A DNA stretch of 64,000 nt from Lactobacillus xujianguonis (GTDB lineage Bacteria > Bacillota > Bacilli > Lactobacillales > Lactobacillaceae), in NCBI RefSeq assembly GCF_004009905.1, contig NZ_ML136876.1, forward strand, positions 1 through 64,000, in the 5' to 3' direction. Each line of letters begins with the position of its first letter. Position 1 is the first letter of the stretch. Below the pieces are notes generated by a model. The model ran no database searches, was not told the origin of the DNA, and was given only the letters and a program-made list of their open reading frames with translations. Position numbers and translations under genes: made by a program. Of this stretch, positions 20,423-20,762 are shown piece after piece.

Positions 20423-20450
20423 TACAAAACTCTCCTTTTTCCAGAAACAC

Positions 20451-20488
20451 AAAAAGACGAACCATAGCCTAAAATGCTACAGTTCGCC
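20451..20488 (-). terminator. Attenuator-like terminator in the oppA leader
   Basis: On the minus strand GGCGAACTGTAGC pairs over 13 positions (including G-U pairs) with GCTATGGTTCGTC, with a 7-base loop and then TTTTT. It ends about 30 bases before the oppA start, downstream of the leader peptide gene on the same transcript. A terminator in this position can only act by attenuating oppA or by ending the leader RNA. Confidence 0.7.
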
Positions 20489-20522
20489 TGACAAATTCTT
20501 ATTCTATTTAACTTGGGTCAAC

Positions 20523-20630
20523 TCAAATAGAACATCGATTTATGGGGAAAGATCGCATATTAGGCACGTCAAATAAGATGCTGCAACAGCAACATTCTTG
20601 AGCTGGCAATTGCATTTGACGTGCTAACAT
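20523..20630 (-). CDS. Cys-rich leader peptide upstream of oppA (35 aa)
   Basis: A GAAGGAG ribosome binding site is followed by MLARQMQLPAQECCCCSI, with four consecutive Cys codons (complement of 20583-20594), and one more Cys near the end. An 11-bp perfect inverted repeat (20564-20574 and 20614-20624) encloses the Cys codons, and a second hairpin (20502-20532) and a terminator (20451-20488) follow before oppA. This is the architecture of amino-acid-sensing leader peptides: a ribosome stalled for lack of Cys-tRNA would change RNA folding. The peptide is not a known family to me; function is inferred. Confidence 0.6.
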   Translation of the reverse strand: MLARQMQLPAQECCCCSILFDVPNMRSFPINRCSI

Positions 20631-20717
20631 GTTTTTCACTCCTTCGTGTTTAACTTACTTTTAGTTAGATAATATCTTAATTTGCTGCTCGCGTCAACTA
20701 TTTTCACTTCGACATGC

Positions 20718-20762
20718 AAAAAAGTTCAGGAAAAAACCTCCCTGAATCTTTTTGACAATCAA
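20718..20762 (-). terminator. Terminator of the multicopper oxidase operon
   Basis: On the minus strand AAGATTCAGG pairs with CCTGAACTTTTTT around a T-rich loop. It ends the transcript of the oxidase and small membrane protein. Confidence 0.75.

Follow-up and report, generated by a model that had tools for sequence, protein, structure and literature searches.

The trp and his operons of the enterobacteria are the classical examples of amino-acid leader-peptide attenuators, and polycysteine leader ORFs, which are without a Shine-Dalgarno (SD) sequence, exist in mycobacteria. Cys-codon runs precede cysteine genes in the Actinobacteria, and for the Mycobacterium leaders the accessible text of the report describes no conserved terminator hairpin and suggests the involvement of Rho (PMC1262725). 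Within the Rhodobacterales, the accessible part of a further report places uORFC-8-2 before cysS, with tandem Cys codons in a first stem that is followed by an intrinsic terminator (PMC8632094), while His leaders in bacilli are said, in the available portion of another, to replace T-boxes (PMC2965389). No Cys leader-peptide attenuator in Lactobacillaceae was found among the matches listed in literature searches, mostly outside subscription papers, and the accessible text of two reports (PMC2494555, PMC6200037) names no such Cys leader.

The leader described here precedes an oppA gene in the window, that is, the whole stretch of 64,000 nucleotides from Lactobacillus xujianguonis that was analyzed, and is very probably a ribosome-mediated transcription attenuator sensing charged tRNA-Cys. 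Like the trp and his attenuators, it combines an intrinsic terminator with three alternating helices and an ORF in which the regulated codon is repeated; unlike them, it employs Cys codons, occurs in Lactobacillaceae, targets a peptide-binding lipoprotein, and often (54 of 72 leaders) spans the start codon with its first helix, 1:2. With uORFC-8-2, to which it can be likened by layout, it shares the placement of upstream Cys codons inside a first stem and the presence of an intrinsic terminator, but uORFC-8-2, as described in the accessible text, belongs to another phylum, precedes cysS, and contains two Cys codons (PMC8632094). Membership of that family was considered and rejected, the gene here being that of an OppA and the named relatives being lactobacilli (the title of one record, L178, is doubtful). 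The mycobacterial polycysteine leaders were likewise set aside as a home for the oppA leader which, unlike them, possesses both an SD-led ORF and an intrinsic terminator. The class of mechanism is a classical one; no earlier account of its lineage, target, or regulon was found in the literature searched.

Anatomy and conservation of the oppA leader

All elements of the leader lie on the minus strand. A promoter-like site (TTGACG-17-TATTAT, 20697-20669) was found by a consensus scan, and is weak taken alone since one such site was found against a mean of 2.5 in shuffles. An SD sequence, AAGGAG (20643-20638), precedes the leader ORF, MLARQMQLPAQECCCCSILFDVPNMRSFPINRCSI* (35 codons plus stop, 20630-20523), which is supported by its relatives as well as by sequence and within which four consecutive Cys codons, TGT TGC TGT TGC (20594-20583), form the proposed stall site. 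These codons are enclosed by a perfect 11-bp stem, 1:2, the arms of which (region 1, 20624-20614; region 2, 20574-20564) are backed by sequence, fold, and the pairing test. Overlapping the 3' end of this stem is the 5' strand of a putative antiterminator, GCCTAATATGC (20565-20555), which lies opposite the 3' strand GCATTTTAGGC (20477-20467, inside the terminator hairpin, region 3) with one mismatch; both strands were placed by complementarity and by tests on the leader set. A second hairpin (20532-20502, arms 20532-20525 and 20509-20502) was recovered by folding, and the intrinsic terminator, 3:4 (20489-20455, T-run 20454-20450), by folding and a terminator scan. The 240-nt leader as a whole folds at -76.4 kcal/mol (z = -5.5), a value equaled by none of 200 shuffles. 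The SD sequence, the 35-codon ORF with its four Cys codons, the 11-bp stem, the second hairpin, and the terminator are thus all where the original prediction had placed them on the minus strand; the stem as first described holds for this locus, but in relatives is often longer, to the point of including the start codon. An Rfam scan of the whole window returned no family at gathering score, the T-box family RF00230 included. Just 5' of the leader promoter, a terminator-like hairpin with a T-run (20725-20746) perhaps ends the transcript of the neighboring oxidase-like gene.

The gene downstream, oppA (20422-18776, ATG at 20422-20420), is identified by sequence and family searches as encoding an OppA-type substrate-binding lipoprotein of the SBP_bac_5 family; its NCBIfam matches all fall below their cut-offs. 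It is an orphan OppA, with no oligopeptide permease gene seen beside it when the window is read by eye, and the gene next door looks like a multicopper oxidase. Metal sensing, an idea prompted by this oxidase-like neighbor, was unsupported at other loci, and the neighbors of oppA differ in the two other species examined. Among known structures, 5kzt, possibly that of Listeria CtaP, is the nearest in sequence to this OppA, and no mention of 5KZT was found among the papers listed in a literature search. Listeria CtaP is, according to the accessible text of one report, a protein of the OppA type with a link to cysteine transport (PMC10269559). No measurements of the expression of this oppA during cysteine limitation were found in the literature searched.

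When the leader peptide was searched against 100 relatives, 26 gave a match at E ≤ 1, of which 11 (the genome of origin included), read individually, proved to be Cys-run leaders upstream of an OppA gene. Conservation was then assessed by a fixed rule (an SD sequence, a start codon, 5-60 codons, and at least three Cys within six codons) applied to 90 OppA orthologs, consisting of 24 copies from 23 of 75 genomes of the genus and 66 from other genera (201 family genomes drawn), the latter with scores on the upper side of a gap that separates 602 from 526 bits. A Cys-run leader precedes 73 of the 90 orthologs, in 13 of 17 genera, as compared with 1 of 43 OppA paralogs (44-48% identity, taken from a longer list), in which it lies ~670 bases upstream; if only the ~450 bases nearest the gene are considered, the rule finds 73 and 0, respectively. 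When the 90 upstream regions were dinucleotide-shuffled, 20 rounds produced a mean of 2.8 and a maximum of 5 leaders. Because orthologs and paralogs differ so strongly under one fixed rule, the leader is not a chance occurrence. The original prediction had suggested looking for conserved short ORFs with Cys runs upstream of oppA in Lactobacillaceae, and had held that homologous leaders lacking the run or the frame would speak against it; within the genus, 23 of 24 ortholog copies keep an SD-preceded Cys-run ORF.

The 17 orthologs outside the rule comprise six with a T-box (L030-L034, L093), five with Cys-containing ORFs recognized by eye afterwards (L037, L044, L096, L099, L103; that of L044 lacks a standard start codon), and six that showed neither Cys leader nor T-box (L042, L073, L113, L114, L116, L117), the eleven without rule leader or T-box having been scanned against Rfam at the gathering threshold only. 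A second set of 80 genomes, which overlaps the first, yielded 69 leaders (L193 doubtful), eight T-boxes, and three loci with neither (L190, L198, L201). Several individual loci are of separate interest. One genome (G044) carries two adjacent OppA orthologs (L079, L080), each with a Cys leader of its own and of differing sequence, and in L046, L054, and L238 a second short Cys-run ORF (MKKACCCRMLRGSI or MAKSCCCWMMTKN) lies ~80-100 bases before oppA, forming tandem Cys leaders. A Lactobacillus-type OppA with a leader of the same type also occurs in the record JAEDAG010000001.1 (L178), titled Faecalicatena absiana, which is probably mislabeled or contaminated.

Among 10 leaders from the genus, the columns M-L and C-C-C are invariant, and among 16 leaders the third base varies in the second and third Cys codons. 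Cys accounts for 14.7% of leader residues and Met, counted after the start, for 6.2%, and in some leaders MMM stands beside the Cys run. Across genera the peptides have, by eye, little in common beyond the run itself (MCCSMC, ACCECN, FCCCSTC, CCPCC). One leader, MCCMKAEADIDCCCSVVFELEENHGIKIN (L115), contains two Cys clusters, and the search found no terminator behind it.

Alternative helices in the leader RNA

A hairpin with a T-rich tail lies downstream of 72 of 73 leaders (that of L097 is weak), and pairing was tested in these 72, L115 having been left out because no terminator was found. Each of these leaders allows pairing of its start region with the segment that follows the Cys codons (1:2), and of that segment with the 5' arm and loop of the terminator (2:3). 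Against shuffles, 1:2 reaches p<0.05 in 55 of 72 leaders and 2:3 in 38, with 17 and 34 failing, respectively; for the leader in the window the values are 0.003 and 0.043. The best 1:2 duplex takes in the leader start codon in 54 of 72 cases, and at least five bases of region 2 are common to both helices in 71 of 72. Moreover, pairing is stronger between cognate segments than after swapping (for each helix p=0.0002 among 54 dereplicated leaders, also with swaps within genera), and among the 35 leaders from outside the genus alone the within-genus swap yields p = 0.02 for 2:3. This test is alignment-free and was run before a column-based count of covariation in 1:2, in which the tally of double-changed cells is reached by 25 of 500 shuffles and the score by 72 of 500; this count, made on an alignment in which the helices are visibly shifted, does not stand clearly above shuffles. 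The 1:2 and 2:3 pairings of these sequences co-vary, and the predicted fold is as in attenuators of the trp and his type. A mutually exclusive antiterminator, one incompatible with both the upstream stem and the terminator, had been left by the original prediction to structure prediction; it is supported by the cognate-versus-swapped test, by the bases common to both helices, and, for the part of the leaders noted above (38 of 72), by shuffles.

Modeling of ribosome position bears on when each helix would form. For transcripts that stop within region 3, a ribosome placed on the Cys codons leaves 2:3 with at least six expected pairs in 71 of 72 leaders (23 of 23 from the genus, 48 of 49 from elsewhere), and with the ribosome at the stop codon the median number of 2:3 pairs is zero. 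In the ribosome-free truncated RNA, 1:2 prevails in most leaders of the genus; 2:3 already has at least six pairs in 2 of 23 genus leaders and 21 of 49 from other genera. The leader in the window is one of those two, with 10.1 pairs when free and 15.4 when stalled. At equilibrium in the full transcript with the ribosome stalled, 3:4 has medians of 14.2 and 15.5 pairs versus 0.4 and 0.3 for 2:3. The terminator thus wins at equilibrium in both states, and the predicted switch must therefore be kinetic.

Leaders ahead of cysK and T-boxes ahead of oppA

A published cysteine response provides, by analogy, the nearest thing to experimental support. The accessible text of the report gives log2 values of -2.9 to -3.2 for cysK2-ctl1-cysE2 of L. 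paracasei FAM18149 in Met-deficient versus Cys-deficient medium, and expression of cysK-ctl-cysE ~8-fold higher without cysteine than without methionine (PMC6004538). According to the same text, 5'-UTR coverage of cysK2-ctl1-cysE2 was high, in which the authors saw support for premature termination, and the search for control elements gave a palindrome resembling a terminator and neither a T-box nor an S-box; a mechanism of control could not be named (PMC6004538). On the L. rhamnosus plasmid pLC1, the terminator that follows an SD-led CCC ORF upstream of cysK-ctl-cysE has the sequence of the published motif, AAGGGCGCGAAA-N16-TTTCGCGCCCTT, and a close variant with the same layout is present in L. 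paracasei pL11434-1. The ORFs encode M(M)SQSMFN... in L. rhamnosus and MTQSMFNAINCCCRTTRFWRCSAC in L. paracasei, both read in plasmid copies rather than in the sequence of strain FAM18149 itself. In these copies the 5'-UTR resembles the oppA leader in that a terminator follows an SD-led Cys ORF, and it differs in preceding another gene and, in the accessible text, in having been published as a terminator with no leader peptide named (PMC6004538).

The same kind of leader also occurs among close CysK homologs (61-82% identity), of which the fixed rule finds a Cys leader before 20 of 31, with positives in six genera, as compared with 0 of 13 distant ones (39-42% identity). The 11 close homologs missed have ORFs with CC under a looser rule applied afterwards, some of them without an SD sequence. 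Of 51 CysK places, 30 were read for leaders; in two more, G264 and G284, Cys leaders were seen by eye before CysK on the complement of the scanned strand. A close CysK was not matched in the genome of the window at E ≤ 1e-40. As a search pattern the published palindrome proved too strict, matching 2 of 201 genomes. Since leaders of this type also precede cysK in a number of genera, the best reading is that Cys-tRNA-sensing attenuation governs a dispersed cysteine regulon in Lactobacillaceae. The sequence CGATGTTCGGCCTGTTA, near the leader end, recurs in the leader of one oppA and in those of cysK from other genera (L035, L163, L249), as if leader cassettes move between genes.

Ahead of the same oppA, chiefly in Liquorilactobacillus, the Cys leader is replaced by a T-box with a Met specifier. 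The eight T-box genomes among the 80 are seven of Liquorilactobacillus and Lactobacillus sp. UCMA15818. All 11 T-box loci that were scanned (from sets that overlap, with some identical sequence) match RF00230, 10 of them below gathering score. AUG (Met) is the specifier in each of the 10 alignments displayed, as it is in L093, and these Rfam alignments ruled out a Cys specifier, which had been suggested by eye. Like the Cys leader, the T-box senses tRNA charging, controls termination, and is found before orthologs of this oppA; unlike it, the T-box binds tRNA directly through its RNA, involves no leader peptide, and specifies Met. Four of the eight T-box loci (L194, L197, L200, L203) carry a second SD-led ORF between T-box and oppA, 137-152 bases before the gene, with a conserved WRGSSRG core (WHGTSRG in L203).

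Proposed switching and its rivals

The leader has a short ORF with a ribosome binding site, a conserved codon run for a single amino acid, and an intrinsic terminator before the gene. Sensing and switching, which we infer from these sequences, would proceed as follows. When Cys-tRNA is ample, the ribosome would move on beyond the Cys codons, either covering region 2 or releasing it, such that the terminator forms and oppA is off; were translation of the leader not initiated, 1:2 would form, with the same outcome. When Cys-tRNA is short, the ribosome would stall at the Cys codons, around which 1:2 could not close, and 2:3 would form as region 3 emerges, pre-empting the terminator and allowing transcription of oppA and, in turn, greater uptake of peptides as a cysteine source. 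That uptake through OppA may be switched on by Cys-tRNA shortage, as originally predicted, is supported by the conserved Cys run, the antiterminator tests, and the cysK-ctl-cysE parallel. Counting against this reading are the equilibrium fold of the full transcript, the 2:3 pairs already present in some ribosome-free truncated leaders (that of the window among them), the leaders for which 1:2 or 2:3 fails against shuffles, the column-based covariation count, and the six orthologs that showed neither Cys leader nor T-box.

Other readings of the same locus can be weighed against this one. It is highly improbable that the leader peptide is itself the product, such as a small metal- or thiol-binding peptide, with the terminator merely fixing its ratio to oppA: the peptide is Cys-rich and the neighboring gene oxidase-like, but the peptides, by eye, differ strongly between genera outside the Cys run, as would be expected if codons are sensed rather than a peptide produced, and moreover the pairing segments co-vary and the neighbors of oppA are not constant. 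Similarly small is the likelihood that control acts on translation or on the lifetime of the mRNA, the hairpin of the terminator serving as a stability element; the equilibrium fold of the full transcript retains the hairpin in both states, as such control would have it, yet a T-rich tail accompanies the hairpin behind 72 of 73 leaders, and the 5'-UTR coverage of cysK2-ctl1-cysE2 was seen by its authors, in the accessible text, as support for premature termination (PMC6004538).

Broader sensing, whether of the sulfur amino acids Met and Cys together or of slow translation in general, is unlikely. The Met content of the leaders, the MMM beside some Cys runs, and the Met-specifier T-box before the same gene in Liquorilactobacillus are points in its favor; however, Cys is the more frequent residue and the conserved feature, no internal Met column is invariant among the 10 genus leaders, and in the accessible report cysK-ctl-cysE responds more to the lack of Cys than to that of Met (PMC6004538).

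Beyond charged tRNA-Cys sensing at individual loci, we see about an even chance of a cysteine regulon free of regulator proteins, in which transferable cassettes of Cys leader and attenuator before oppA and cysK-ctl-cysE are evolutionarily interchangeable with Met-tRNA T-boxes, and in which the upstream helix also shuts the leader start codon as a built-in off state. Food and gut lactobacilli often depend on amino acids from outside, and a Cys-tRNA switch on peptide uptake would predict which OppA feeds them cysteine. Such a switch would also offer an explanation for the published, unexplained cysteine response of the flavor-related cysK-ctl-cysE genes, and would extend classical attenuation by leader peptides to cysteine genes in the Firmicutes, which usually rely on T-boxes. 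The exchange of Cys leader and T-box before the same gene would, finally, constitute a clear case of one type of sensor replacing another.
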